Of a DNA stretch of 35,951 nt, positions 9,504 to 27,420 are shown in pieces (position 1 is the first letter of the stretch; each line of letters begins with the position of its first letter). The notes beneath the pieces were generated by a model. It had not been told where the DNA came from and did no database searches. It saw nothing but the letters and a program-made list of their open reading frames with translations. The position numbers were made by a program, and so were the translations under genes. This DNA comes from Planctomycetota bacterium (GTDB taxonomy: Bacteria; Planctomycetota; Brocadiia; Brocadiales; Brocadiaceae). The DNA is taken from assembly GCA_023261485.1 (NCBI GenBank), contig JAHFOY010000013.1, positions 1-35,951 on the forward strand, read 5' to 3'.

Positions 9504-10892
9504 ATGGAATATAAAAAAACTATCCCAAAGGTTGCGGTATTTCTGCTGGTTTGCCTGCTGGCGACTTTTTCTTATGCTTCAGAAACAAATGGTCCAACAA
9601 CTAAAAAGATCCCCCCGTCATTTCTCCTCATAACCGTAGATACTCTGAGCGTCTACCGTCTGCCGTTTTACGGTTACAAAAGGAGTACCGCTCCTTTTTT
9701 AGGAAAGCTGGCCGAGCATGGAATTGTTTTCAACAATGCTTACAGTACCTCATCATGGACAGTTCCTGCGGTGACTTCTTTGGTAACCGGTGTATATCCA
9801 TCCTCGCATGGAATAATGCGAGGATCCGTTAAAAATGGGCATATTTACAAACAAGCACCTGTTCCAAAAAAATTACCTAATTTACCGGAACAACTGAAAG
9901 CGCTGGGATATCGTACATACGCTGTAACTGCCAACTATCATCTTACGAAAGAACTTGGCTTTGGACGCGGGTTTGACCGATATGCCTGTGTCGGGTTTTG
10001 TGCCGCAGAAAAAGTCAATAGCTTCTTTCTAAAATGGAAGCGCGAAATCGAATCACAAAAGGGACCTGTTTTTATCTGGCTACATTACTTTGATCCTCAT
10101 ATCCCTTACATAGGACGGCAACCATGGCTGAAACAATATCAAAACGACGAAACGGAAGAGGAGTCCGGTATGGTTAGTTCTTTATTACGCCCCGTACAGA
10201 TGCGCCAGACGATCAAAAATAAAGGGCAGCGCATTCTGACATTGGCTAAATCACATTACGATTCGGAAATTAACTATTGTGACGAGCAAATCAATAAACT
10301 GTTCCAGGAATTCCCGTCGCTGGAACAATATGTCATGGTTTTCACTGCCGACCATGGGGAAGAATTCATGGAACACGGCAGGCTCGGCCATGCCAGAAAT
10401 CTCTACAATAATACCGTACGCATTCCACTCTTCATACGGCTGCCTGGCATAACATCCATCGCGAATTCCAAAGAAGTGGCTAGCCTTATAGATGTTGCTC
10501 CTACCTTGCTGGGCATTGCAGGAGGCAAAGCGCCTCTATCCTGGCAGGGACGTGCATTGATTGATCAGAAAGGACAAGTTTCTCCGCGAGAAGAAAGATA
10601 TGTACTTGCCCAACTCAATAATGGCATTGCTCCTCCATTGAATGCCCTTATTGGGTCAAACTGGAAACTGGTTATTAATGATAAAACCCAGTCCAAAGAA
10701 CTTTACAATCTCACGAATGACCCCGCGGAACGGAACAACCTGGTGACTTTACAACCCGAAAAAACCCAGCAGCAGAATGAAATCCTTCAGAAACTTGTTC
10801 TTTCCTTACCACCAGCTCCCAAGACAGGCGAGAAAAAACCACTTCAGAAAGACAAAGAAGAAATGCTGCGAAGCCTCGGTTATATACAGTAG
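9504..10892 (+). CDS. Secreted sulfatase-fold (alkaline phosphatase superfamily) hydrolase
   Basis: A 462-residue protein with a signal peptide (about residues 1-26) and a sulfatase/phosphotransferase fold. Visible landmarks are TVDTLS (D46, metal ligand), SSWTVPAVTSLVTGVYPSSHG (about 83-103), FTADHGEEFMEHG (D283, H284), a further His in RLGHARN (H296), and the C-terminal LYNLTNDPAERNNL typical of sulfatases. The position of the formylglycine precursor Cys/Ser in C/S-x-P-x-R is Thr86 here, and the Arg is Val, so conventional activation is unlikely. Thr is the nucleophile in related phosphotransferases, so phosphate-ester or phosphoglycol chemistry is possible. It opens the glycan gene cluster. 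There is no clear ribosome site, because the start sits directly behind a terminator. Confidence 0.85.
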   Translation: MEYKKTIPKVAVFLLVCLLATFSYASETNGPTTKKIPPSFLLITVDTLSVYRLPFYGYKRSTAPFLGKLAEHGIVFNNAYSTSSWTVPAVTSLVTGVYPSSHGIMRGSVKNGHIYKQAPVPKKLPNLPEQLKALGYRTYAVTANYHLTKELGFGRGFDRYACVGFCAAEKVNSFFLKWKREIESQKGPVFIWLHYFDPHIPYIGRQPWLKQYQNDETEEESGMVSSLLRPVQMRQTIKNKGQRILTLAKSHYDSEINYCDEQINKLFQEFPSLEQYVMVFTADHGEEFMEHGRLGHARNLYNNTVRIPLFIRLPGITSIANSKEVASLIDVAPTLLGIAGGKAPLSWQGRALIDQKGQVSPREERYVLAQLNNGIAPPLNALIGSNWKLVINDKTQSKELYNLTNDPAERNNLVTLQPEKTQQQNEILQKLVLSLPPAPKTGEKKPLQKDKEEMLRSLGYIQ

Positions 10893-10937: not shown

Positions 10938-12656
10938 GTGTGCAATAATCAGCCATCTCTTCCATACTTCATTTACTTAACGAAATTCCGCACCCTGCTC
11001 TTTTCCCTGATTGTTTTCTCTTCCTTTACTATTTTTTATAATCTGGGCAGTAACAGCCTTCATAATGGAGACGAAGCGCTTTATGCCATTATTTCGCGGG
11101 AAATGTTAATTACAGGAGATTGGCTCACTCCACATGTCCAGGGAAAACCCTGTTTTAACAAACCTCCTTTGAAATTCTGGATGACGGCATTGTGCTTTCG
11201 TTTCTTTGGAACTTCCGAATGGGTAATCCGGTTTTGGTCAGCCTCATCTGCCGTAGCATGTGTCTTCTTTACTGTTTTGCTGGCAAAAGAACTATTCGGT
11301 GAGAAGGCGGCTCTATGGTCGGGGTTTTCTCTCGCAACATGTTTTCATTTTATTTATGAACATTGCGCCAAAACTGGCGAAATGGATGCCATTCTGTTAT
11401 TTTTCCTGGTAAGCAGTTTGTACCTGTTGATTCGCAGTGAGAAAAAACCCCATTTATTATTGATAAGCTTATCCATTATGGGGTTAGCATCGCTTACTAA
11501 GAATTTTGCCGGCTTTTTGCCATTTGGAATTGGTTTCCTGTATCTGCTAGTCACCGGGAAATGGAGGAATTACAGCGCCTCCAGCATCATTCAATCTATT
11601 CTCTCGTTCCTGGTTATTTCTGCCGGCTGGATTATTGCAATGATACTGATACACAAGCAGGTATTTTTTAATGAATTTTTTATCCAACAGGTTTATAACC
11701 GGGCAACTTCAACAGAATACGGTATGGGAGTAAATGAGGCGCGGAGTTTAACCGGTGGAATTCTCTTTGTCGGAAAAACAATGCTAAAAGGTTTTTATCC
11801 CTGGTCATTACTGATGCTGCCGTGTTTGGTCTGGGCATTTTTTCAAATCCCGCAATGGAGGAAAGACCGTCGAATTCTCCCGTTTATATGGCTGGTAAGT
11901 TTCGGAACTATACTTCTTTTTTTTAAAAACAAACTACACTGGTATTTATTGCCGATGTACCCGGCTGCTTCTGTCCTGATAGGGAAATTCTTCACGGAGG
12001 CATTCTCTGAAACCAAAATTAGCTGGAAGAACACACTATCTTGTGTATTCCTGTCTTACGGATTTTTTCTCTTGCTTCCAAACTGCTGTTACGATCTCTT
12101 TTCTCTCAGGGCAGTAGATTCAAGGGTTTCCACATTGATACTAAATCCACATCCTGTAATCGCCCTCTTATTGGCTGTAAGCAGTATCGTAATCTGGATA
12201 GTTATCGCCGGAAGATATTCTCGTCTGGTTCAATATGCTATTCCCATAGTATTGCTGGTTTACGCTATGGCATTCGTCATACTCCCCTTACGATATGCCT
12301 CACATCGGTCAGAAATCCAAAAATTAACTATGGCAATTGCGCAACAGACTCGAACCTCCGAACGCACACTTTATTTTTGGGGTATACCTGAAACTGTTTT
12401 TGAACGCTCGGATTTACTTTGGAATCCCTCAAAAATAGCAAAATGGTACTTCAGTATCATACCAAATATACACATTTCTTTTTTAACAACCGACAAACAA
12501 GATATATGCCAACGGTTGAAAATGGAAGACGACAACCTGTTTCTTATGACCGCTCAGTATTACCAACAAATCCAATCTGCTTGTTCCCATCAGGTTCTGG
12601 CAACCCAGGCTGTCCGTGGGAAAACTTACGTCCTTGTAAGTCCCGTAAAAAAATGA
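10938..12656 (+). CDS. ArnT/PMT-family membrane glycosyltransferase
   Basis: A 572-residue polytopic protein (about ten or more hydrophobic segments) starting at GTG. The first extracytoplasmic loop has the family signature GDEALYAIISREMLITGDWL followed by GKPCFNKPPLKFW, where the acidic residues after the first helix are catalytic in ArnT/PMT-type GT-C enzymes. These enzymes transfer a sugar from a polyprenyl phosphate carrier to lipid A, protein or glycan on the periplasmic side. Aminoarabinose itself cannot be assumed, because no arn pathway genes are nearby. It lies 45 nt after the sulfatase-fold gene and probably modifies the surface glycan made by the downstream genes. Confidence 0.88.
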   Translation: MCNNQPSLPYFIYLTKFRTLLFSLIVFSSFTIFYNLGSNSLHNGDEALYAIISREMLITGDWLTPHVQGKPCFNKPPLKFWMTALCFRFFGTSEWVIRFWSASSAVACVFFTVLLAKELFGEKAALWSGFSLATCFHFIYEHCAKTGEMDAILLFFLVSSLYLLIRSEKKPHLLLISLSIMGLASLTKNFAGFLPFGIGFLYLLVTGKWRNYSASSIIQSILSFLVISAGWIIAMILIHKQVFFNEFFIQQVYNRATSTEYGMGVNEARSLTGGILFVGKTMLKGFYPWSLLMLPCLVWAFFQIPQWRKDRRILPFIWLVSFGTILLFFKNKLHWYLLPMYPAASVLIGKFFTEAFSETKISWKNTLSCVFLSYGFFLLLPNCCYDLFSLRAVDSRVSTLILNPHPVIALLLAVSSIVIWIVIAGRYSRLVQYAIPIVLLVYAMAFVILPLRYASHRSEIQKLTMAIAQQTRTSERTLYFWGIPETVFERSDLLWNPSKIAKWYFSIIPNIHISFLTTDKQDICQRLKMEDDNLFLMTAQYYQQIQSACSHQVLATQAVRGKTYVLVSPVKK

Positions 12657-12776: not shown

Positions 12777-14588
12777 ATGATGACCAAAATACGCCATTAT
12801 TTTCCCATCCTTTCTATTGTTTCAATCTCTTTCCTGGTTTACCTGAATGCCTTAAGTAACGGCTTTGTCTGGGACGATATGGTTTTGATTGTTGATAACG
12901 AAGGTGTCGGGAAATGGGGTTGTTTCTGGGAAAATTTTGTAAGGGATTTCTTTGATACAACTGACGATACCATTGAATTCAAATATGGTTACTACCGTCC
13001 CATTATAAGCCTCAGCTATATGATTGATTATGCCCTATGGGGAATAAAACCGTGGGGTTTTCATCTTTCAAATATGATTTTTCATACCATTAGCTGCATT
13101 TTTGTTTATTTGATATTTAATGCATTATTTCGCAATCGTTATGCCTCTGTCGTTACTTCTCTACTGTTTGCCTGCCACCCCATTCATACCGAATCAGTAA
13201 CGTGGATATCCGGCCGTACTGATGTCACTGCGGGCATGTTTTTTTTATCTGCTTTTTACTTATACCAAAGAACAATAAAGCCTCTGCTAACAAACGAAAA
13301 TACTCGTCTCTTGAACAGCCCGGAAGCGCTAAAACTGGTTTTTAAACAAGGCAAGGTTTTTTATGCATGTTCTGTCGTTTTATTTGTAATCGCTATGCTT
13401 TGTAAAGAGATGGCAGCAACGCTACCCTTTCTAATAATTGCTTATACTTATTACTTTGCAGGATTGAGGAACGGAAGGCAATATAAAATATCATTGCTCT
13501 TAAGTACGCCTTATTTTTTTATCATCCTTTTATACGGCCTCATCCGGTTTTTTATTTTAGGGATCCATACCGTTGTCAATCCGGGCGGGGAGGAAATGAC
13601 AGGCTTTTATCCAACGGCAATTTCATTTATAAAAACTATCTTGCTTTACTTATTCAAACTCGCTTACCCCGTCCGCCTGAGCGCATATATTCAGAATCCC
13701 ATGTCTTTTTCCGTATCCGAACCTACAGTTATTTTATCCATCTTTGGCGTCGCTTTTCTTATTTTTTTGATTGTGTGGTTGAAAAAACGATGGGCTACTA
13801 TGTCTTTTTTAATACTTTTTTATTTGGTAACGTTGTTGCCGCTATCCAATTTCGTTCGTATCTCGGCGCCGTGGGATATGGGTTTTGTTACCGCAGAAAG
13901 GTTTTTATATATCCCTTCCCTTGCATTTTGTGGAATAACTTCGGCATTGCTGTCCCGGGGATGGGAAATTGGGAGGCTAAAATATATAACTATCCCAATT
14001 CTCATCGTACTCCTGGTTTTTTATTCAGGCAAAACTCTTCTCCGAAATAATGACTGGGTGGACGAAAAGACCTTCTTCATAAAAACACTTACTGATGCGC
14101 CGAAGGCGGCATTGCTTCACCATGCATTAGGAAATGTATACGTCAGAGAAGAAAAATATGAAAAAGCGCTGGATTACTACAAAGAATCACTCAGATTGTA
14201 TCCCTTATATCATGCAGCATATAATAATATTGGCACGATATACAGCAAAAGTGGACTTTTTGATCAGGCAATAACCGCATTTAAAGAAGCTATAAAGATA
14301 AACCCCGATTATGTCCAGTCCCATTTTAACCTTGGAACAATGTATTACCAAAAAGGGATGATACAGAACGCCTCCGATGAATTTAAAAAAGTTCTCAAAC
14401 TTAACAAAAATTATGTAAAGGCGCATAATAATTTAGGTATAATTTATGCAGAAAACGGGCAGTTAAACGAAGCCATTTCTGAATTCGAAGAAGTACTTAG
14501 GCTTGACCCCCACAACGAAAAGGCAAGAAACAATCTGGCAATAATCAAAGAAGAACTGGCAAACAATTCTCCCGATAAAAATTTATAA
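12777..14588 (+). CDS. TMTC-like membrane transferase with C-terminal TPR repeats
   Basis: A 603-residue protein. The first 430 or so residues are polytopic GT-C-type membrane sequence, with the early loop GFVWDDMVLIVDNEG carrying the paired Asp residues expected for catalysis and YYRPIISLSYMIDYALWG soon after. Residues from about 440 to the end form four or five tetratricopeptide repeats (ALLHHALGNVYVREEKYEKA, AAYNNIGTIYSKSGLFDQAI, SHFNLGTMYYQKGMIQNASD, AHNNLGIIYAENGQLNEAIS). This layout matches TMTC-type O-mannosyltransferases and their bacterial relatives. Substrate and sugar are unknown. The TPR part probably docks an acceptor protein or partner enzyme in the periplasm. The gene has its own predicted promoter within the cluster. 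Confidence 0.85.
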   Translation: MMTKIRHYFPILSIVSISFLVYLNALSNGFVWDDMVLIVDNEGVGKWGCFWENFVRDFFDTTDDTIEFKYGYYRPIISLSYMIDYALWGIKPWGFHLSNMIFHTISCIFVYLIFNALFRNRYASVVTSLLFACHPIHTESVTWISGRTDVTAGMFFLSAFYLYQRTIKPLLTNENTRLLNSPEALKLVFKQGKVFYACSVVLFVIAMLCKEMAATLPFLIIAYTYYFAGLRNGRQYKISLLLSTPYFFIILLYGLIRFFILGIHTVVNPGGEEMTGFYPTAISFIKTILLYLFKLAYPVRLSAYIQNPMSFSVSEPTVILSIFGVAFLIFLIVWLKKRWATMSFLILFYLVTLLPLSNFVRISAPWDMGFVTAERFLYIPSLAFCGITSALLSRGWEIGRLKYITIPILIVLLVFYSGKTLLRNNDWVDEKTFFIKTLTDAPKAALLHHALGNVYVREEKYEKALDYYKESLRLYPLYHAAYNNIGTIYSKSGLFDQAITAFKEAIKINPDYVQSHFNLGTMYYQKGMIQNASDEFKKVLKLNKNYVKAHNNLGIIYAENGQLNEAISEFEEVLRLDPHNEKARNNLAIIKEELANNSPDKNL

Positions 14589-14600
14589 CGTTGGTTTTCA

Positions 14601-15755
14601 ATGAAGATTGCACTGGTAGTATATCAGTTTATAAGGGAAAAGGGCGGCGTAGAAAGTTATGTATTCAACCTATCCGGCCATCTGCTTAACCAAGGACACG
14701 AAGTTCATATATTTGCACATAAATTCACACAAGATCAGGATAAAAGGTTGCTTCTTCACCCTGTGCCTGCCGTATCCTTCTGGTCACCCTTAAAATACTG
14801 GTCGTTTGCACTAAATGCCCCTAAAATCATTAAAAAAGCGGGAATAAAATTTGATATCGTCCATGGATTTACACAAACACTATTTCAGGATATTTACCGG
14901 GTGGGAGGCGGATGCCATTGGGATTATATGATGCATACCTACCCCTTGATGCACTCTGTATTTGGCAAGATTATCATGTGCCTTAATCCCAGACATATGA
15001 GCATCCTCCTTCTTGAAAAGATCATTTTTAAAAGAAAACTCTATAAACAAGTTACTTGCATATCAGAACAATGTAAGAAAGAAATCATACATCATTACAA
15101 ATTACCTGCAAATGATATAGAGGTTGTTTATAATGGAGTTAATACTATGGTATTTACTCCTCAAAACAGGCTAAAATACAGAACCGCTATACGAGCAAAA
15201 TATAACGTAGCGCCGGATGAAATTCTTTTGCTGTTTGTTGGTTCCGGATTTAAGAGAAAAGGTTTAAAATATGTCATAGATGCATTCCCTTTGATTGACG
15301 AAGATAAAAAACTAAAACTGCTCGTCGTAGGGAAAGGAAAAGTAAGAAAGTACCAGAAACTTGCAAAAGATAATGGCATTGCCGATAAGATAATCTTTGC
15401 CGGCGTATACAAAAATATCCAGGAAATATATGCGGCAGGCGATATTTTCGTTTTTCCAAGTGAGTACGATGCCTTCGGCACTGCATGTCTGGAGGCAATG
15501 GCATCAGGACTCCCGGTTATTGCAAGCAGGGCCAGCGGCGTTTCAGAGGTCATTACACACGGCAAAGACGGTTTTGTTATTAATTACCCCATCGATGCGA
15601 AAGAAATAGCACACTATATTAATTTACTTTTAGAGGAAGGCAAAAGAAACCAAATGGGTTCTGCTGCAAGGCAAAAATCAGAGACGTATTCCTTCGAAGC
15701 TAACGTTGAAAAAACACTTCGTATCTATCAAAAGGTCATAAATATTAATTCGTAA
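14601..15755 (+). CDS. Glycosyltransferase family 4, WaaG-like
   Basis: A 384-residue GT-B enzyme starting 12 nt after the preceding gene. The N-terminal domain has GGVESYVFNLSGHLLNQGHE and the phrase IYRVGGGCHWDYM, which resembles the VYRAGDGVH segment of LPS-core transferase WaaG. The C-terminal domain binds the nucleotide sugar: LLFVGSGFKRKGLKYVIDAF, then SEYDAFGTACLEAMASGLPV, where Asp occupies the first position of the E-x7-E motif, as in many LPS-core members. It is cytoplasmic or membrane-peripheral. Together with the next gene, a WaaP-like kinase, it suggests synthesis and decoration of an LPS inner core or similar glycolipid. The exact donor sugar is not visible. Confidence 0.9.
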   Translation: MKIALVVYQFIREKGGVESYVFNLSGHLLNQGHEVHIFAHKFTQDQDKRLLLHPVPAVSFWSPLKYWSFALNAPKIIKKAGIKFDIVHGFTQTLFQDIYRVGGGCHWDYMMHTYPLMHSVFGKIIMCLNPRHMSILLLEKIIFKRKLYKQVTCISEQCKKEIIHHYKLPANDIEVVYNGVNTMVFTPQNRLKYRTAIRAKYNVAPDEILLLFVGSGFKRKGLKYVIDAFPLIDEDKKLKLLVVGKGKVRKYQKLAKDNGIADKIIFAGVYKNIQEIYAAGDIFVFPSEYDAFGTACLEAMASGLPVIASRASGVSEVITHGKDGFVINYPIDAKEIAHYINLLLEEGKRNQMGSAARQKSETYSFEANVEKTLRIYQKVININS

Positions 15756-15761
15756 AAATCC

Positions 15762-17435
15762 GTGGTAAATATTTATTTTAACTTAACACAAAAAGATGCT
15801 CACCGTCACACCATAAACAACATTCATTGGCTGGTAAAAGGTGTCTCATTGGACATTTTGGAAGAAATCTTAGACTCGATGGCTAATGGAAAAAACTGCG
15901 AAATAATTCACAGCGGATATTTTAAAAAAGTATCAAAATATACAAACAATAACCGGTCATTCTATATAAAGCAGTATACAACAAGACAACTACCGGACGC
16001 CCTCAAATCGTTATTTTCCACATCCAAGGCGCAAAGAGAATGGGAAAATAGTCATTTATTGCTCGCGAAAAACCTGCTTACAGCCGAACCTGTCGCAGTT
16101 GGAGAAAGGAGACGTTTGGGAATGCTGAAAGACTGTTACATAATTTCAAAGGCAATACCCAATAGTATACCGGTGAAGGAACTGTTATTTGATTCACAGC
16201 AAACCTCAGCCAATCCCGATTTCTCAAAGAAAAACAATATAATCAAACACCTCGCCTTTTCCGTCAAAACGATACACGATTGTGGAATTGTCCATGGCGA
16301 GCTTCATGCAGAAAACATACTTGTTAACAAGGACAACACAACCGAATTTTATCTGCTCGATACCGGACGTACTAAATTTACGAGGGAAATACCTCTGACA
16401 TGGAAGATTCGGGAATTATCACGATTAATCTATTCTCTTATTGATACCTGTACAAGTGAAGAAATAGAAGAATTGATAGATAGTTATACAAACCAACTAT
16501 CAGAATCCAAAAACAGGGCAATTTTTCGCAGGGCAGTTTTTGAAGAAGTCCTCAGGATCAAGCGCAGGCTCTGGAACAGCAGGACAAAAAAATGTTTAAA
16601 AAATAACAATGTGTTTAAAATTGTCAGGCACAACAATTATACAATAAATATGAGAAATGAGTGGAACGCCGGTTCATTATCAGAACTAATCAATAAACAC
16701 ACTGCATTCATAAAGGAAGGATTAAACAGTGTCATAAAAAAATCCCCTAAAACAGCCATCACTATTGTGCCGGTATCCAGCGGAAGTATTAAAAGTGTGT
16801 GCATCAAAGAATATAAATATCCATCTTTAATTAAGAGATTTTTCTATTTTTTCAGCGCCTCTCCTGCACGAAAGGCGTGGCTGGCTGCACATGGTTTAAT
16901 GGCATTAAATCTTCGAACACCTAAGCCCTTCGCTTTACTTGAAGAAAAAAAGCTGGCCAGGATAGAAAAGAGCTTCATCATTATGGAGGATATTTCTGCC
17001 TGCCTTCCTTGCAACAAATACGTCAGTGAGAGGTTTTCTAATCCTTCCGACCCGGGTATTTTTGGGGAAAAAAAGCTGTTTATCTCCTGTCTGGCGCAAT
17101 CTTTTAAACAACTGCACCACTCCAGCGTTTATCATGCTGATTTAAAGGCAAATAATATTATGATTATGGAATTGCCGGATACGTGGGATTTTTTTTATCT
17201 GGATTTAGACCGGGTATGTTTTAACAAAAAAATCACTCTCAAAAAGAAGATCAAAAATTTGTCACAATTAAACGCATCTTTACCTAACTGTATTACTTAC
17301 ACTGATAGGTTGCGATTTTATCGAGCGTATTCAGGAATGGAACACCTTGATAGCGAAAACAAACGAACGTTACAAGCAATTATACAGTTAAGCATACAGC
17401 GAAAACACGTATGGAATCCAAAAGTTTCACCATGA
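15762..17435 (+). CDS. Tandem WaaP/Kdo-kinase-like protein (two kinase domains)
   Basis: A 557-residue protein with two lipopolysaccharide-kinase-like domains. Domain 1 (about residues 50-275): K70 in FYIKQY, REWENSHLL, the loop HGE180LHAEN185IL, D200 in YLLDTGR, ending RIKRRLWN. Domain 2 (about 340-553): K349 in VCIKEY, RKAWLAAHGL, the loop HAD460LKANN465IM, DLDRV, ending IQRKHVWN. The shared end motif argues for internal duplication. Domain 1 has Glu in place of the catalytic Asp and may be weak or regulatory; domain 2 keeps all key residues. WaaP-type enzymes phosphorylate core heptose. The gene follows the WaaG-like gene by 6 nt, starts at GTG, and its stop overlaps the next start. Confidence 0.85.
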   Translation: MVNIYFNLTQKDAHRHTINNIHWLVKGVSLDILEEILDSMANGKNCEIIHSGYFKKVSKYTNNNRSFYIKQYTTRQLPDALKSLFSTSKAQREWENSHLLLAKNLLTAEPVAVGERRRLGMLKDCYIISKAIPNSIPVKELLFDSQQTSANPDFSKKNNIIKHLAFSVKTIHDCGIVHGELHAENILVNKDNTTEFYLLDTGRTKFTREIPLTWKIRELSRLIYSLIDTCTSEEIEELIDSYTNQLSESKNRAIFRRAVFEEVLRIKRRLWNSRTKKCLKNNNVFKIVRHNNYTINMRNEWNAGSLSELINKHTAFIKEGLNSVIKKSPKTAITIVPVSSGSIKSVCIKEYKYPSLIKRFFYFFSASPARKAWLAAHGLMALNLRTPKPFALLEEKKLARIEKSFIIMEDISACLPCNKYVSERFSNPSDPGIFGEKKLFISCLAQSFKQLHHSSVYHADLKANNIMIMELPDTWDFFYLDLDRVCFNKKITLKKKIKNLSQLNASLPNCITYTDRLRFYRAYSGMEHLDSENKRTLQAIIQLSIQRKHVWNPKVSP

Positions 17436-18418
17436 AGAAAGTCTATTTTCTCATTCAGGAGTGGGAACACCCTGCAAGCAGATACAGGGTATTACAATAC
17501 ATTCCTTACCTCAAGGAATCTCAAATAGAGTCAAAGGTTGCGCTCTTTCCGGATTCTTTCTGGAAGTGGATGAAATTATTCTCTGAGATTCAGGATTACG
17601 ATATACTCTTTGTTCAAAAGAAACGGCTGTGGCAGTGGCAACTCTGGTATCTTAAGAGGAAAGGCATCAAGATCATTTACGACTTTGACGATGCCGTTAT
17701 GTATAAGAGTCCTGTGGATGGCGGAGGACGATCTTTCAAGCGGAGAAGGACATTTGCCAGAATGATACGATACAGTGAACAGATTATAGCCGGTAATCAA
17801 TATTTAAAAATGCAGGCATTACCTTACAATAAAAATATAATCGTAATACCTACTGCAATTGATACGAGTAAATACACAATGAAAGATTATAGCAGGAATA
17901 AAGAAAAGGTTACTATCGGGTGGATCGGCAGCAAATCTTCGCTTCCGTTCTTAAAGGAATTGACCCCTGCCTTTGATCATTTAGCAAGCCAACGTGAAGC
18001 TATAGAACTAAAGATTATCTGTAACGATTTTTTTGAGTGTGAGAAGATGCCCGTTATCAAAAAGCCCTGGACAATGGTGGACGAAAACTCAGATTTACAG
18101 GATATTGACATAGGTCTGGCGCCTTTACCCAATCACGAATGGACAAAAGGCAAATGTGCAACAAAGTTACTACAATATCTCTCTGTAGGAATTCCCGTTG
18201 TCTGTTCTCCTGTAGGCGTACACAATGAAATCATACAGGAAGGTGTTAATGGTTTATTTGCGTCGTCCAATCAGGAATGGACTGAAAAGATAAACCTCCT
18301 TGCACACGACAAGACCCTTCGGGAACGCATAGGACTTGAAGGCAAAAGAACGGTAGAATCACACTATTCATTAAAGGCAAATGTCCCAAAATTCATTAAC
18401 GCCATCAAAGGAATTTAA
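17432..18418 (+). CDS. Glycosyltransferase, GT-B (family 4-like)
   Basis: About 328 residues from the chosen start. The N-terminus MKKVYFLIQEWEHPASRYRV, the IIYDFDDAVMYKSP segment, and the C-terminal GWIGSKSSLPFLKELTPAFD, DIGLAPLPNHEWTKGKCATKLL and VGIPVVCSPVGVHNEII identify a GT-B glycosyltransferase of a type common in surface polysaccharide loci. The ATG at 17432 overlaps the stop of the kinase gene (ATGA), which indicates coupled translation. An in-frame ATG at 17411 would add seven residues (MESKSFT) and is less likely. Donor and acceptor are not predictable from sequence. It probably adds a sugar to the same oligosaccharide as its neighbours. Confidence 0.85.
   Translation: MKKVYFLIQEWEHPASRYRVLQYIPYLKESQIESKVALFPDSFWKWMKLFSEIQDYDILFVQKKRLWQWQLWYLKRKGIKIIYDFDDAVMYKSPVDGGGRSFKRRRTFARMIRYSEQIIAGNQYLKMQALPYNKNIIVIPTAIDTSKYTMKDYSRNKEKVTIGWIGSKSSLPFLKELTPAFDHLASQREAIELKIICNDFFECEKMPVIKKPWTMVDENSDLQDIDIGLAPLPNHEWTKGKCATKLLQYLSVGIPVVCSPVGVHNEIIQEGVNGLFASSNQEWTEKINLLAHDKTLRERIGLEGKRTVESHYSLKANVPKFINAIKGI
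18407..18413 (+). promoter_or_regulatory. Ribosome-binding site that fixes the start at 18423
   Basis: AAAGGAA (18407-18413) lies 9 nt before GTG 18423, and the GTG is 4 nt after the previous stop. The alternative ATG at 18381 has AAAGG only 3 nt upstream, which is too close. Confidence 0.5.
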
Positions 18419-18422
18419 TATC

Positions 18423-19325
18423 GTGCCTGATAACTTACCTCTTGTAAGCATAATATTACCTGCATACAATTGTGCAGCTTTTTTACCCCATTCAATCGGA
18501 TCAATTCTTGCTCAGACCTACAATTCTTATGAAATTATCGTAATAGATGACGGATCCACAGACAACACAAAAGAGGTATTAGAACCATTTTCCCAAAGGA
18601 TAAAATACATTCAATTTGAACAAAACAGAGGATTACCTATAGCAAGAAACGCCGGAATTCGATCCGCACAAGGCAAGTATATAGCTTTTATTGATGCGGA
18701 CGACCTCTGGCTGCCGGAAAAATTACAGACTGACGTGGGGTACTTTCAGCAACACCCGGAAGTAAGCATGGTCTTCTCAAAGCATATAAACATAGACGAC
18801 AGGGGTTGTGAGCTTAACGGAAGCACAAAGAAACAATTGCCATCAGGTAACATTTTTATACAATTATTTTACGAACAGAACTTTATAATTTCCTCATCCG
18901 TAGTTGTACGAAAAGAGGTATTCGAAACAACGGGATTGTTCGATGAACAACTCGTCAACTGTCAGGACTGGGATATGTGGTTAAGAATTGCATTTCACTT
19001 CAAAGTCGCAGGGATTAATACACCGCTCGTCAAGTACAGGCACAATCCGCATTCTTTAAGCAAGAACAGAAATAATGTTTTGAAATATCAAAAAATAGTT
19101 ATCGATAAAATATATAATAAGTTTAAAAACTCCGAAAATAGTATTACCGAAAAACTTTATAAAAAGCGGCTAGCTTCACACTATGCAAAGATTGGCCGAC
19201 ATTATTTAAGAATAGGGGATAAAAAACGCGCGAACGAAAATTTTGGCCTGTCCTTAAAGAACGATCCTTTAAATTTTAGGTCGATAAGATATTACTTATG
19301 CACGTTTTTTCATAAATCAAAATGA
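18423..19325 (+). CDS. Glycosyltransferase family 2
   Basis: About 300 residues from GTG 18423 (an upstream ATG at 18381 would add 14 residues and overlap the preceding gene). GT-A fold: VSIILPAYNCAAFLPHSIGS, EIIVIDDGSTDNTKEVLEPF, NRGLPIARNAGIRSAQGKYI, then the metal-binding FIDADDLW (DxD) and CQDWDMWLRIAF, which carries the catalytic acidic residues. The C-terminus is basic and helical (KRLASHYAKIGRHYLRIGDK), resembling a TPR-like helical pair. It is a cytoplasmic inverting transferase working on an activated sugar. It sits directly behind another glycosyltransferase and in front of a third, so it belongs to the same assembly line. The sugar specificity is unknown. Confidence 0.9.
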   Translation: MPDNLPLVSIILPAYNCAAFLPHSIGSILAQTYNSYEIIVIDDGSTDNTKEVLEPFSQRIKYIQFEQNRGLPIARNAGIRSAQGKYIAFIDADDLWLPEKLQTDVGYFQQHPEVSMVFSKHINIDDRGCELNGSTKKQLPSGNIFIQLFYEQNFIISSSVVVRKEVFETTGLFDEQLVNCQDWDMWLRIAFHFKVAGINTPLVKYRHNPHSLSKNRNNVLKYQKIVIDKIYNKFKNSENSITEKLYKKRLASHYAKIGRHYLRIGDKKRANENFGLSLKNDPLNFRSIRYYLCTFFHKSK

Positions 19326-19342
19326 TTTGATATTACCATATT

Positions 19343-20299
19343 ATGGTTGACCTGTGCTTTATTATTGTAAACTGGAATACAAGGCAGTTATTGCTCGATT
19401 GCATAGATTCTATTAATACAACCGTTATTGGACTTCATTACCAAATATATGTTGTGGATAACGGTTCTGTGGATGATAGCGTTAAGGTCGTCCGTGAACG
19501 ATTCCCAAAGGTTATTGTCCTGGAGAACCTGGAAAACAGGGGGTTTGCCGCCGCTGTAAATCAGGCACTGGGAAGAGACGCAGCAACGTATAGCATATTA
19601 ATAAATACAGATACACTCTTACATAAAGACGCCATTCGCGTAATGTATTCATTTATGGAACGGCACAAAGAGGTCGGGATTGCCGGGGCTCAACTTGAAA
19701 AACCGGATGGTACACGGCAACATAGTTACGATAACTATCCGACTTTAGCAACAGAGCTTTTGAACAAAAGTTTATTGAAATGGATTTTTCCCCAAAAGTA
19801 TCCAAGCAAGAAGCAACAAATCATACAACCTATGGAAGTTGAATCAGTTATTGGGGCATGTGTAATGATAAGAAATGCGGCTATAAGAAATGTTGGAAAA
19901 TTAGATGAAGATTATTTCTTCTTTCTGGAGGAAACCGATTGGTGCTACCGTATGCAAAAGGCGGGTTGGAAGGTGTATCACCTGCCCAAAGCCAGGATTG
20001 TCCACCTTGGCGGGCAAAGCAAGAAGCTGGCGCCCTGGCAGTCGCAGATCGAGTATTGCCGTTCGCTCTACATCTTTTTTAAAAAGAATAGGCCTACCGC
20101 ATCGTACCTGCTGCTCAGGATATTTTATCCTGTAAAAATTCTGATAAACTTTATCGCAAACTTTACAGTCAATTTAGCCGTCTTTTTTCAGCATCGAAAA
20201 CTGCGCTACCGGCTCTCTACCTATGCCATGCTTTTATGGTGGCACGTTTTATTATGCCCTGACTGGCTGGGTTTAAAACCGGCAAAAAATAAGGAGTAA
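19343..20299 (+). CDS. Glycosyltransferase family 2, rhamnosyltransferase-like
   Basis: A 318-residue GT-A enzyme. Signatures are LCFIIVNWNTRQLLLDCIDS, YVVDNGSVDDSVKVVRERFP, NRGFAAAVNQALGRDAATYS, the ILINTDT metal site, VIGACVMIRNAAIRNVGKLD and DYFFFLEETDWCYRMQKAGW. The last two are typical of the WcaA/RfbF-like branch often annotated as rhamnosyltransferases. A hydrophobic C-terminal region (about residues 260-300) may attach it to the inner membrane. It is the last gene of the glycan cluster, 17 nt after the preceding gene. No clear terminator follows; the next 206 nt hold only a weak 6-bp hairpin (20378-20397) and the promoter of the next gene. Confidence 0.9.
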   Translation: MVDLCFIIVNWNTRQLLLDCIDSINTTVIGLHYQIYVVDNGSVDDSVKVVRERFPKVIVLENLENRGFAAAVNQALGRDAATYSILINTDTLLHKDAIRVMYSFMERHKEVGIAGAQLEKPDGTRQHSYDNYPTLATELLNKSLLKWIFPQKYPSKKQQIIQPMEVESVIGACVMIRNAAIRNVGKLDEDYFFFLEETDWCYRMQKAGWKVYHLPKARIVHLGGQSKKLAPWQSQIEYCRSLYIFFKKNRPTASYLLLRIFYPVKILINFIANFTVNLAVFFQHRKLRYRLSTYAMLLWWHVLLCPDWLGLKPAKNKE

Positions 20300-23377: not shown

Positions 23378-25858
23378 TTACAGGCTACTTTCAGCATTCG
23401 CCAGCACAGGTTCCGGACTCTCAACTACCTCATCAAAGACCAATTTACCCTCATGTACCCTTGCCTTTACATGTTTCTTCCCTTCAAATCTACCCTGTAG
23501 TATTTCTTCGGAGAGAGGGTCTTCTAAATAATTTTCTATCGCCCTTCGAAGTGGACGCGCCCCAAAATTTTGGTTGTACCCCTTCTCTATGAGAAAATCC
23601 AATACCTCATCCGTAAGCGTAATGCTGATGTTGTAATTATCCAGCCTCTTTTTCACGCTCTTCAATTCGATCTCGATAATCTTCTTCAAATCCTCTTTAT
23701 TCAATGGTTTGAAGACGATGATATTATCCACCCTGTTTATAAACTCCGGACGGAAGTGCTTGTCAACTTCTTTCTTCAGTTGCTCCTTCATCACCTCATA
23801 TGTATGCTCATCGGTGGTCTTTTTAAAGCCCAAAGATGCCTGGTTTTTAATAACGTCCGCTCCAATGTTCGAAGTCATGATAATGACCACGTTGCGGAAA
23901 TCCACGTGACGACCAAAACTGTCCGTCAATTTCCCGTCTTCCATAATCTGTAACAACATGTTGAACACATCAGGATGCGCCTTCTCGATTTCATCCAGCA
24001 ATACAACGGCGTAAGGACGACGGCGAATCTTCTCTGTCAGTTGCCCCCCTTCTTCATAGCCGATATAGCCTGGAGGAGCGCCAATCAATCGTGAAATATT
24101 ATGTTTTTCCATGTATTCCGACATGTCTATCTGTATAAGCGCTTCCTCTTCTCCAAACATGAATTTTGCCAGCGACCTTGCGAGGTGCGTCTTTCCTACA
24201 CCGGATGGCCCTACAAATATAAAAGACGCAACAGGGCGATTCGGGTTCTTTAACCCTGCGCGAGAGCGCCGTATCGCCTTGGCAATCGCCTTTGTAGCTT
24301 CCTCCTGGCTGACCACCATCTTATGAAGTTCCTCTTCCATACGAAGCAGCTTTTTGGCTTCTGCAGATTCTATGCGTGTGATGGGAATTCCCGTCATTTT
24401 AGAAACAACCTCGGCGACAATTTCACCATTCACGACACCTTCAACTTCTGCGCGGGTTTCACGCCATTCTTTCTCAATTGTTTCCTTTTTCTTTTTCAAT
24501 TTGTCGGCCTTGTCTCTTAACCTGGCGGCCCTTTCAAAATCCTGAATTGCAACAGACTCGTCCTTGTCTTTTTCAAGTTTATTGATTTCTTCTTCTATAT
24601 GTCTCAAGTCAGGCGGCTGCGTGGTCGCCTTGAGTCGTATCCTTGCACATGACTCATCAATCACGTCAATCGCCTTGTCCGGAAGGTATCTTCCCGTAAT
24701 GTAGCGAATCGATAGTTCAGTTGCCGCCTCTAATGCGTCATCCGTAATTTGAACCTTGTGGTGCGCCTCGTACCTGTCGCGCAGCCCTTTTAATATTTCA
24801 ATGGTCTCCGTCTTTGAAGGAGGTTCGACGACAATCGTTTGGAACCTTCTTTCGAGTGCGCCGTCTTTTTCAATATATTTCCTGTATTCATCCAACGTAG
24901 TAGCGCCAATACACTGGATTTCACCCCGTGATAATGCAGGTTTCAAGACATTAGACGCATCAATGGCGCCTTCAGCGCCGCCTGCACCCACAAGGGTATG
25001 CAGCTCATCAATAAACAGGATAATGTTCTTTGCTCTTTTTACTTCTGACATTACCGCTTTAATACGCTCTTCGAACTGACCTCTGTATTTTGTGCCAGCC
25101 ACCATCATTGCAAGGTCTAACGCCACAATCCTGCGGTCTCTTAACAGTTCCGGGATATTCCCCTGAACTACAGCCTGCGCAAGGCCTTCAACGATTGCCG
25201 TTTTTCCTACCCCAGCCTCACCCAGCAAAACAGGGTTATTCTTGGTTCGGCGGCACAATACCTGAATGACGCGTTCGATCACATCCTGTCGTCCGATGAC
25301 CGGGTCAAGCTCATGTTCCCGGGCTTGCTGTGTGAGATCCCTGCCGAAAGAGTCCAACGCAGGAGTCTTCGACTTCCCCTTCTTTTCTTCTTTCTCCTGA
25401 TTGACGCCTCCCTGAACAGCTTCCGAACCTAACAGGCCGATAACTTCCTCCCGTACGTCTTCGAGTTTTACCCCCAGATTTAACAATACCTGGGCAGCAA
25501 CACCTTCCTGCTCTCTCAGTAATCCCAATAACAGATGTTCCGTTCCAATATAATTATGACCTAAAGCCCGCGCCTCCTCCATCGCATATTCCAGCACCTT
25601 TTTAACGCGCGGGGTAAATGGCAACTGCCCAACTGAAACCAGGTCTGATCCACTCTGTACAATTTTTTCTACCTCCAGGCGTATTTTTTTCAACTCTATA
25701 TCCAGGTTTTGTAAAACATTGGCAGCAACGCCGCTGCCTTCTTTCACCAACCCTAACAGGATATGTTCCGTTCCGATATATTCGTGGTTAAATCGCCGGG
25801 CCTCTTCTCGTGCAAGCGCCATAACCTTTCTAGCACGGTCAGTAAATCGATCAAACAT
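23378..25858 (-). CDS. clpC: ATP-dependent unfoldase ClpC
   Basis: An 826-residue class I Clp/Hsp100 ATPase. Two N-terminal Clp-N repeats (about residues 1-145, each with YIGTEHxLLGL) form the substrate- and adaptor-binding domain. D1 has Walker A GEAGVGKT (213-220) and the middle domain carries a UVR-like stretch ([18 protein letters not shown]), typical of ClpC rather than ClpA or ClpB. D2 has GPSGVGKT and the [13 protein letters not shown] Walker B region. It unfolds substrates for ClpP. In organisms with McsB it recognises phosphoarginine-tagged proteins. It is encoded 7 nt downstream of mcsB, so the tagging kinase and its reader are co-transcribed. A terminator follows at 23323-23351. 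Confidence 0.97.
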
Positions 25859-25865
25859 AATACAC

Positions 25866-26954
25866 CTATCCTTTCAAACTTTTTATCTTTTCCAGGCGTT
25901 TTCTTACATATGATGCGCGAATAATATTCCTCTGTGTGGAATTAAGCTCGCGTCCTTCCAGCTTTTGTAAGTGTCCCGGCAGCGTGAGAATGAAAAGCTC
26001 ATTTAACGTTTTCATTTCAATGTCATTAATTATTCCCAAATTGACTCCCATTCTGACTTGAGAGAGCAGATGCATAATCTCTTCCGAAGAAATCAGTCTC
26101 GCCACCTTGAGCATACCATAAGACCGCCATACCCGGTCCTCTAACTGTTCGCGGCTTTCAGAAACGAGCGCCTTTCTAGCCATCCGCTCATAACTGGTAA
26201 TCCTGGGAATCACACTTTCAATAATCTCAATAATTTCCACTTCCGATTTGCCAAGGGTAAACTGGTTGGAGATTTGATATAAGTCCCCTGAAACTTGCGT
26301 CCCTTCACCATATAGCCCCCTGACCACCAATCCGAGCTTCATAACGGCAGTAAACACCTTCTCAATATGGTGAGTCATCCCTAAGGCCGGCAAATGTAAC
26401 ATGACTGACGCCCTCATCCCCGTACCTACATTTGTAGGGCAGGCCGTTAGATATCCAAACCGTGAAGAATAAGCATAATTTAATTTTCTCTCCAATTTAT
26501 TATCTATATCATCTATCGTTTTCCATGCCTCTTTTAGTTCAAATCCTGAGCGAATCACCTGTATCCTTAAATGATCTTCTTCGTTAACCATCAGACTGAC
26601 GGTTTCCGATTTACCAAAGGCCACGCCCCTTTCACCCTCTCCCCCTGCATGTTCCCTGCTGATAAGGTGTCGTTCTACCAAAAAAAGCCTGTCCACAGGC
26701 GTAATATCCGCAAGGTTCAAATAACAAAGATCCTGTGAAATATCGGAGTCCTTAATCCTCTCCCTGATAATCTCTTCGAGTTCCTTTTTTTGCTTTACAT
26801 TGGCCCTTGAAAGAAAGGGAAATCGCGCCACATTCCTGGCCAAACGAATCCTGCTGCTAATGACGATGTCTGACTCAGGACCTGTTCCTCTGAGCCATTC
26901 ACCAGTATTATCGGCAAGATCACTAATCTTCATCGTTGTCGCCTGAAAGCTCAT
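25866..26954 (-). CDS. mcsB: Protein-arginine kinase McsB
   Basis: A 362-residue ATP:guanido phosphotransferase-fold kinase. Key segments are DIVISSRIRLARNVARFPF (about residues 29-47), ERHLISREHAGGEGERGVAF, and the catalytic loop ACPTNVGTGMRASVMLHLP with C172. The C-terminal part has the arginine-phosphate-binding region of bacterial McsB (SYERMARKALVSESREQLED). McsB phosphorylates arginine on misfolded proteins, marking them for ClpCP. The start at 26954 has GAGGG 8 nt upstream and overlaps mcsA by 32 nt; a later ATG at 26933 would still overlap. The length is normal and no key residue is missing. Confidence 0.96.
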   Translation of the reverse strand: MSFQATTMKISDLADNTGEWLRGTGPESDIVISSRIRLARNVARFPFLSRANVKQKKELEEIIRERIKDSDISQDLCYLNLADITPVDRLFLVERHLISREHAGGEGERGVAFGKSETVSLMVNEEDHLRIQVIRSGFELKEAWKTIDDIDNKLERKLNYAYSSRFGYLTACPTNVGTGMRASVMLHLPALGMTHHIEKVFTAVMKLGLVVRGLYGEGTQVSGDLYQISNQFTLGKSEVEIIEIIESVIPRITSYERMARKALVSESREQLEDRVWRSYGMLKVARLISSEEIMHLLSQVRMGVNLGIINDIEMKTLNELFILTLPGHLQKLEGRELNSTQRNIIRASYVRKRLEKIKSLKG

Positions 26955-27420
26955 AAATTTTATCCCTCAATTCAGCAGCCCTTTCGTAATCTTCTTTTTC
27001 TACGGCCTTATTCAGTTCATTCCGTAACTGCATGAGTTCATTCTTCTTTATTAATTCTTTCCCTGCCCTTGAAGGCACTTTTCCGACATGCTGGGTACTG
27101 CTGTGCATCTTTTCCAACAAAGGGATTAGCCCTTTTCTAAAAATGGTATAATCCATCGGGCAGCCCAAACGGCCATTGGAGCGGAATTCCAAATAAGACA
27201 GTCCGCACACGGGACAAACGATCTTGGACATCTCATTTATTTCAGGCGCTACCTGATTAATGAGGCTTGTTAATATTTCAGTGGGTGATGGTATTTTTGT
27301 TAGATGTGTATTGATGCTCTGCGCACACTCTTCACATAGATGTCGTTCCTTCTTTGCAGTACCGACGATCTCCGTTAAATGCACCGTCGCATGCTTTTTA
27401 TTACAAGATTCGCATTTCAT
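26923..27420 (-). CDS. mcsA: McsA, UVR-motif activator of McsB
   Basis: A 165-residue protein with an N-terminal zinc-binding region: CESCNKKHATVHL with a following CEEC (about residues 3-34), then CPVCGLSYLEFRSNGRLGCP (about 89-108). In place of a fourth CxxC it has GCPMDY, a form I associate with non-Firmicute members. The C-terminal UVR motif is LRNELNKAVEKEDYERAAEL (about 132-151). McsA activates the arginine kinase McsB and helps control ClpC substrates. The stop overlaps mcsB by 32 nt, so the two are translationally coupled. AGGGG lies 9 nt before the ATG. Confidence 0.93.
   Translation of the reverse strand: MKCESCNKKHATVHLTEIVGTAKKERHLCEECAQSINTHLTKIPSPTEILTSLINQVAPEINEMSKIVCPVCGLSYLEFRSNGRLGCPMDYTIFRKGLIPLLEKMHSSTQHVGKVPSRAGKELIKKNELMQLRNELNKAVEKEDYERAAELRDKIYELSGDNDED

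Follow-up and report, generated by a model that had tools for sequence, protein, structure and literature searches.

A two-domain kinase of the lipopolysaccharide kinase family in anammox bacteria, with a clade-specific glutamate in its first catalytic loop

The gene and its two kinase domains

The window, i.e., the whole stretch of 35,951 nucleotides that was analysed, contains a gene for a protein of 557 amino acids, situated in a run of glycosyltransferase genes (Table 1). Orthologues do not share the first ~14 of these residues. The window comes from Brocadiaceae, and its relatives are anammox bacteria of the Planctomycetota, namely Ca. Brocadia, Ca. Loosdrechtia, further Brocadiaceae and, at the level of the order, Ca. 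Scalindua.

Table 1. Coordinates of the two-domain kinase gene, its active-site residues and its neighbours in the window
Feature	Position	Strand	Remarks
GT4 glycosyltransferase, directly upstream	14601..15755	+	neighbour kept in most Brocadiaceae
Two-domain LPS-kinase-family gene	15762..17435	+	GTG start, 557 aa
N-terminal kinase domain, aa 45-278, WaaP-like type	15894..16595	+	PF06293
Beta-3 Lys70 (ATP), YIKQY	15969..15971	+	invariant in 42-sequence alignment; matches WaaP K51 by motif
Alpha-C Glu93	16038..16040	+	invariant in 42-sequence alignment; matches WaaP E78
N-half catalytic loop HGELHAEN, aa 178-185	16293..16316	+	near-invariant across Brocadiaceae
Glu180 (GAG) replacing catalytic Asp	16299..16301	+	Asp in f2, f4, f5 orthologues
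N-half D-x-G (LLDTGR): Asp200, Gly202	16359..16367	+	Asp200 invariant; His at 202 in sister families
C-terminal kinase domain, aa 285-555	16614..17426	+	PF06293, own AF2 model
Beta-3 Lys349 (CIKEY), C half	16806..16808	+	invariant in 42-sequence alignment
Ala372 at alpha-C Glu position	16875..16877	+	aligns with Glu93 and WaaP E78
C-half catalytic loop HADLKANN, aa 458-465	17133..17156	+	H458, D460, K462, N465 invariant
C-half DLD (DLDRV): Asp481, Asp483	17202..17210	+	both invariant; covariation; POMK precedent
Glycosyltransferase	17411..18418	+	overlaps kinase stop by 25 bases
GT2 glycosyltransferase, same run	18381..19325	+	
GT2 glycosyltransferase	19343..20299	+	double kinase's most widely conserved partner

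The Pfam family PF06293 (Kdo/WaaP; curated cut-off 21.3 bits) matches the N half with 64.0 bits (E=1.7e-17) and the C half with 42.4 bits (E=7e-11). The original prediction had placed two WaaP-family kinase domains in one protein and proposed that its halves be aligned; they align with 29% identity over 216 amino acids (BLASTP, E=2.8e-20; 75 bits by phmmer). An AlphaFold2 (AF2) model of the whole protein, built from an alignment of 42 sequences, has a mean pLDDT of 89 and the secondary structure of two successive bilobal kinase folds; the C half modelled alone has a pLDDT of 91 and a pTM of 0.87. The alternatives of a single kinase fold, or of two unrelated families, are thus not borne out, both halves being members of the same superfamily.

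By profile, the best solved structure for the N half is Pseudomonas aeruginosa WaaP (6dfl, E=8e-22), which also matches the C half (E=1e-12) and is the top fold match in the PDB for the C-half model (E=1.2e-12, TM 0.63/0.70). The likeness to WaaP (RfaP, the LPS core heptose(I) kinase) lies in the fold and in the Lys/Glu/HxD/DxH layout of the N half, in which the signature residues are Lys70, the alpha-C Glu93, HGELHAEN and DxGR. Unlike WaaP, the protein has two domains rather than one, Glu for Asp in the N half, no alpha-C Glu in the C half and, in both halves, Asn instead of His as the second metal residue. The Lys strands (Lys70 and Lys349), catalytic loops (residues 178–185 and 458–465) and Asp strands (Asp200 and Asp481) lie where they had been predicted. 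A closing basic-x-x-Trp-Asn motif, also predicted, is present in both halves (RRLWN and KHVWN, respectively) and its Trp is conserved in the alignment consensus, but its Asn is less so.

Against the WaaP equivalog model (NF011703, cut-off 170 bits), the whole protein scores 98.1 bits and the C half 44.9 bits; KdkA, the Kdo kinase (NF002475, cut-off 142 bits), is the second-best match for both halves, with 71.5 bits for the whole protein and 35.6 bits for the C half, far below its cut-off, and KdkA has one domain. Since both halves fall below the WaaP and KdkA cut-offs, the scores do not point to a particular acceptor sugar. There are also weaker matches to Pkinase, Bud32/PRPK and defence kinases, which could speak for a role in signalling, as a protein kinase or otherwise, with no relation to LPS; however, LPS kinases are the best matches both by family and by fold, and the glycosyltransferase context is conserved and includes glycosyltransferase–kinase fusions, so such a role is improbable. 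An antiphage kinase was considered and rejected, as the defence-kinase matches are confined to the catalytic loop.

Gene neighbourhood, distribution and ancestry

The kinase gene and the GT2 gene that begins at 19343 remain neighbours in Scalindua and even in MAGs of Pseudomonadota and Thermodesulfobacteriota. In several deltaproteobacteria the homologue of this GT2 carries a third PF06293 domain as a fusion, near the double kinase (L138:12391-14223, in which the domain was tested with Pfam; L134:12165-14126; L147:11457-13418). Other fusions were observed: a C-type LPS kinase domain with an O-antigen ligase (Wzy_C) on a Ca. Jettenia ecosi contig (L126:9884-11893, also L036:10250-12259), and a GT4 glycosyltransferase with a C-type LPS kinase domain (L125:3-1880).

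The original prediction suggested looking for the fusion beside waaG-like genes in related genomes, and such a fusion was found beside a waaG-type gene in an Oceanospirillales genome. This locus (L180), the one gammaproteobacterial example that was read completely, runs GT9, GT9, GT4, WaaP (374.7 bits, over the equivalog cut-off), a second kinase and the double kinase, i.e., a core-LPS operon waaF-waaC-waaG-waaP-(wapP-like)-double. The corresponding place in Pseudomonas is occupied by wapQ and PA5006, the latter labelled ‘Kinase’ in a core-LPS cluster with wapQ, wapP and waaP (PMC8005017). The gammaproteobacterial two-domain kinases, of ~480 amino acids, have waaP-type genes next to them at the loci found, keep the same N-type/C-type order and resemble PA5006 by locus; unlike those of Brocadiaceae, the N halves found among them all have Asp rather than Glu. 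PA5006 is presumably a two-domain protein too, judging from its position and length.

The window's genome encodes LpxC, a Kdo transferase, six GT9 proteins and an HldE-like protein of 506 amino acids that scores just under its cut-off, in keeping with a published genomic case that the outer membrane of anammox bacteria bears LPS (PMC3422733). The double kinase thus lies in a setting that fits core-LPS biosynthesis, and from the glycosyltransferase context and the LPS genes, a core-LPS sugar is the best inference for its acceptor. The same genome has a single-domain KdkA-like kinase (L042:4680-5720, G000:C110; 94.6 bits against the cut-off of 142) that adjoins a GT9 heptosyltransferase. In the cluster of the double kinase there is also a membrane protein with C-terminal TPR repeats (12777-14588), adjoining an ArnT/PMT-like transferase (10938-12656) and a sulfatase-family protein (9504-10892). 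Further along the window (23378-27420) are consecutive genes for ClpC, an McsB-like guanido kinase and an McsA-like protein, named by eye; in an anammox bacterium this row may be compared with the arginine-phosphorylation system of Firmicutes.

A full-length orthologue, about 50–90% identical, is present in nearly all Brocadiaceae genomes; in the order's other families, most genomes have a more distant one (~30%). The gene was absent from some Brocadiaceae genomes (three g6 genomes, G010 and G016); thus, the double kinase is not essential to all members of the family. The gene of Ca. Brocadia carolinensis has a frame change near the C-half DLD (L037:5086-6582 and L083), which is either a sequencing error or a recent loss.

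The original prediction read the two halves as an internal duplication. In a maximum-likelihood tree of 107 kinase domains, 30 N halves group together (SH-aLRT 89), the C halves group with related single-domain proteins (SH-aLRT 89–90; core 98), and no N half pairs with the C half of its own protein. Both lineages are common to Planctomycetota, Desulfobacterota-like bacteria and Tritonobacter. A recent duplication within this gene might be suspected from the 29% identity of its halves, but the tree and the occurrence of the same two types in other phyla argue against it so strongly that it is rejected as highly improbable, unless gene conversion were shown. What survives of the internal duplication is a very old homology between the halves: since these are separate lineages across several phyla, the two-domain form is ancient. 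The six N halves from gammaproteobacteria are placed on a long branch away from the N group; this position may be an artefact or reflect a separate fusion. The single-domain C-type proteins of Desulfomonile nest inside the C group, which suggests that the N half was lost there.

The two active sites

In alignments, residue 180 of the N half corresponds to Asp460 in the C half and to Asp163 of Pseudomonas WaaP (6dfl). Thus, within the HxD loop of PF06293 the C half keeps the catalytic Asp and the N half does not, as had been predicted from the single sequence. At the codon level, Glu180 is present in 26 of 26 Brocadiaceae orthologues (15 GAA, 11 GAG), varying silently but never to Asp, which is one base away; this rules out chance or a mis-call. 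The loop reads HGELHxEN, or HGELHADN once, in all Brocadiaceae orthologues, and H178, G179, E180, L181, H182, E184 and N185, together with K70, E93 and D200, are invariant in 25 of them. Coded as a DNA pattern and run against 392 Planctomycetota genomes, HGELHxEN matched 22, of which 18 were Brocadiaceae; in the other four no match was a kinase (one, although an exact HGELHAEN, belonged to an unrelated frame of low complexity), so that among these genomes the motif occurs as a kinase loop only in the double-kinase gene.

Outside Brocadiaceae, the N halves have the full canonical set of residues. Position 180 is Asp in the sister families f2, f4 and f5, which carry DLHR as WaaP does, and in N halves from Desulfobacterota-like bacteria, Pseudomonadota (the gammaproteobacterial ones read by motif) and Tritonobacter. 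Among the sequences examined, the change of Asp180 to Glu occurs in all Brocadiaceae orthologues and nowhere else, accompanied by Gly184Glu and, in nearly all, by His202Gly. These comparisons argue for a single remodelling of the active site in the ancestor of Brocadiaceae, under strong constraint since.

The site of the N half is remodelled rather than decaying. Its dN/dS is 0.17, against 0.18 for the C half (Nei–Gojobori, 51 pairs), and the ratio of N-half to C-half divergence in Brocadiaceae (1.25) is not above that of the Asp-bearing f2 (1.28), so no relaxation is visible; it exceeds that of f4 (1.05). Decay is excluded because the N half keeps all nucleotide and metal residues under purifying selection. 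A second two-domain kinase of 484 amino acids in the same genome (L043:4476-5927; G000:C39:16543-17262 region) has a C half without the ATP Lys and the DFG Asp (INNF, NYASF) and looks like a kinase–pseudokinase pair with decay in the opposite half; L047 and L063:15977-17566 resemble it.

A remodelled N half could nevertheless be a true pseudokinase that binds ATP without transfer of phosphate; its part would then be to activate the C half allosterically, to position it, or to dock the core substrate. The base residue of the superfamily is replaced, WaaP with D163A fails to support growth (PMC6147952, which reports no D163E), there are fewer invariant positions in the N half (26 of 234) than in the C half (42 of 230), and bacterial pseudokinases that retain ATP binding have been described (PMC12599244). 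Against this, residue 180 is always Glu and never a neutral residue in more than 25 orthologues that are ~55% identical, the loop is nearly invariant, and neither dN/dS nor the divergence ratio sets the N half apart. A pseudokinase in Brocadiaceae is therefore a serious contender, to which we give somewhat less than an even chance.

The C half keeps Lys349, Asp460, Asn465 and Asp481, but it is also off-canon, having Ala372 in place of the alpha-C Glu, which the original prediction overlooked. In nearly all C-type domains, in all phyla, this position is Ala, Ser, Thr, Cys or Asn. Among 192 domains, the residue two after the DFG Asp is acidic in 101 and not acidic in two of those in which the alpha-C Glu is absent, whereas it is acidic in eight and not acidic in 81 of those in which the Glu is present. 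After thinning to 47 domains of <40% identity, these counts are 21 versus two and five versus 19, respectively (Fisher p=1e-6). The covariation does not represent many independent events and is support rather than proof, because it is largely one deep and old lineage split.

There is a precedent in POMK (SgK196, protein O-mannose kinase), a glycan kinase of the same fold formerly termed a pseudokinase, which has no alpha-C Glu and in which the second Asp of a DLD motif pairs with the ATP Lys, although this ion pair is dispensable (PMC5142810). By analogy, it is proposed that Asp483 stands in for the absent alpha-C Glu. Unlike POMK, which has no beta-3 Lys, the C half keeps this residue, and the two are not close homologues. 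In Pseudomonas WaaP, E78A is strongly impaired (PMC6147952); thus, given the D163A and E78A phenotypes, either half could be crippled.

Proposed function and significance

The anatomy and distribution of the double kinase are held with high confidence, its function in the LPS core with moderate confidence, and the catalytic state of its N half, as read from sequence, with low confidence. Probably, the protein is an LPS-core kinase in which the C half is the main phosphotransferase and the N half binds Mg-ATP. It would be cytoplasmic, comprising two anciently fused domains of the WaaP/KdkA superfamily and encoded in a core-glycosyltransferase operon. The C half would most likely transfer phosphate by means of Lys349, Asp460, Asn465 and Asp481, with the second Asp of DLD in the role that the alpha-C Glu has in canonical kinases. 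The N half, a WaaP-like domain, would still bind Mg-ATP, its active site having been rebuilt in the Brocadiaceae ancestor (Asp180Glu, Gly184Glu, His202Gly) and then fixed. We infer, rather than observe, the LPS-core substrate, the binding of ATP and the catalysis by each half.

Both halves may be active, so that the core would receive two phosphates, each at a position of its own. The remaining ATP and Mg residues are intact in both, the N half is canonical, including its Asp, outside Brocadiaceae, and separate WaaP and WapP-type kinases adjoin one another in gammaproteobacteria; however, Asp is replaced by Glu in Brocadiaceae and the two acceptor sites are hypothetical, which makes this reading rather doubtful. 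For the N half taken by itself, we slightly favour a modified phosphotransfer, with Glu as the base and an acceptor of its own, over a regulatory pseudokinase. A stronger version, in which the N domain is naturally active (or performs other nucleotide chemistry) with Glu for the near-universal Asp, compensated by Gly184Glu and His202Gly, is unlikely, though conceivable. If true, there would be, with the DxD-type C domain, two differently non-canonical kinase sites in one polypeptide.

In sum, the double kinase is an LPS kinase of ancient two-domain form, one half of which has a catalytic loop with a clade-specific Glu and the other a DxD-type site. A literature search turned up nothing on LPS kinases with two domains or on kinases with a natural Asp-to-Glu exchange; the two-domain LPS kinase, described here as widespread, appears to be uncharacterised. 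The single clade-wide switch from Asp to Glu, the Asp-bearing sister families and the second kinase domain as an internal control together make this a clean experiment of nature on whether Glu can serve as the base in a working kinase. The double kinase also points to a phosphorylated core LPS in anammox bacteria, the outer membrane of which is still poorly known.
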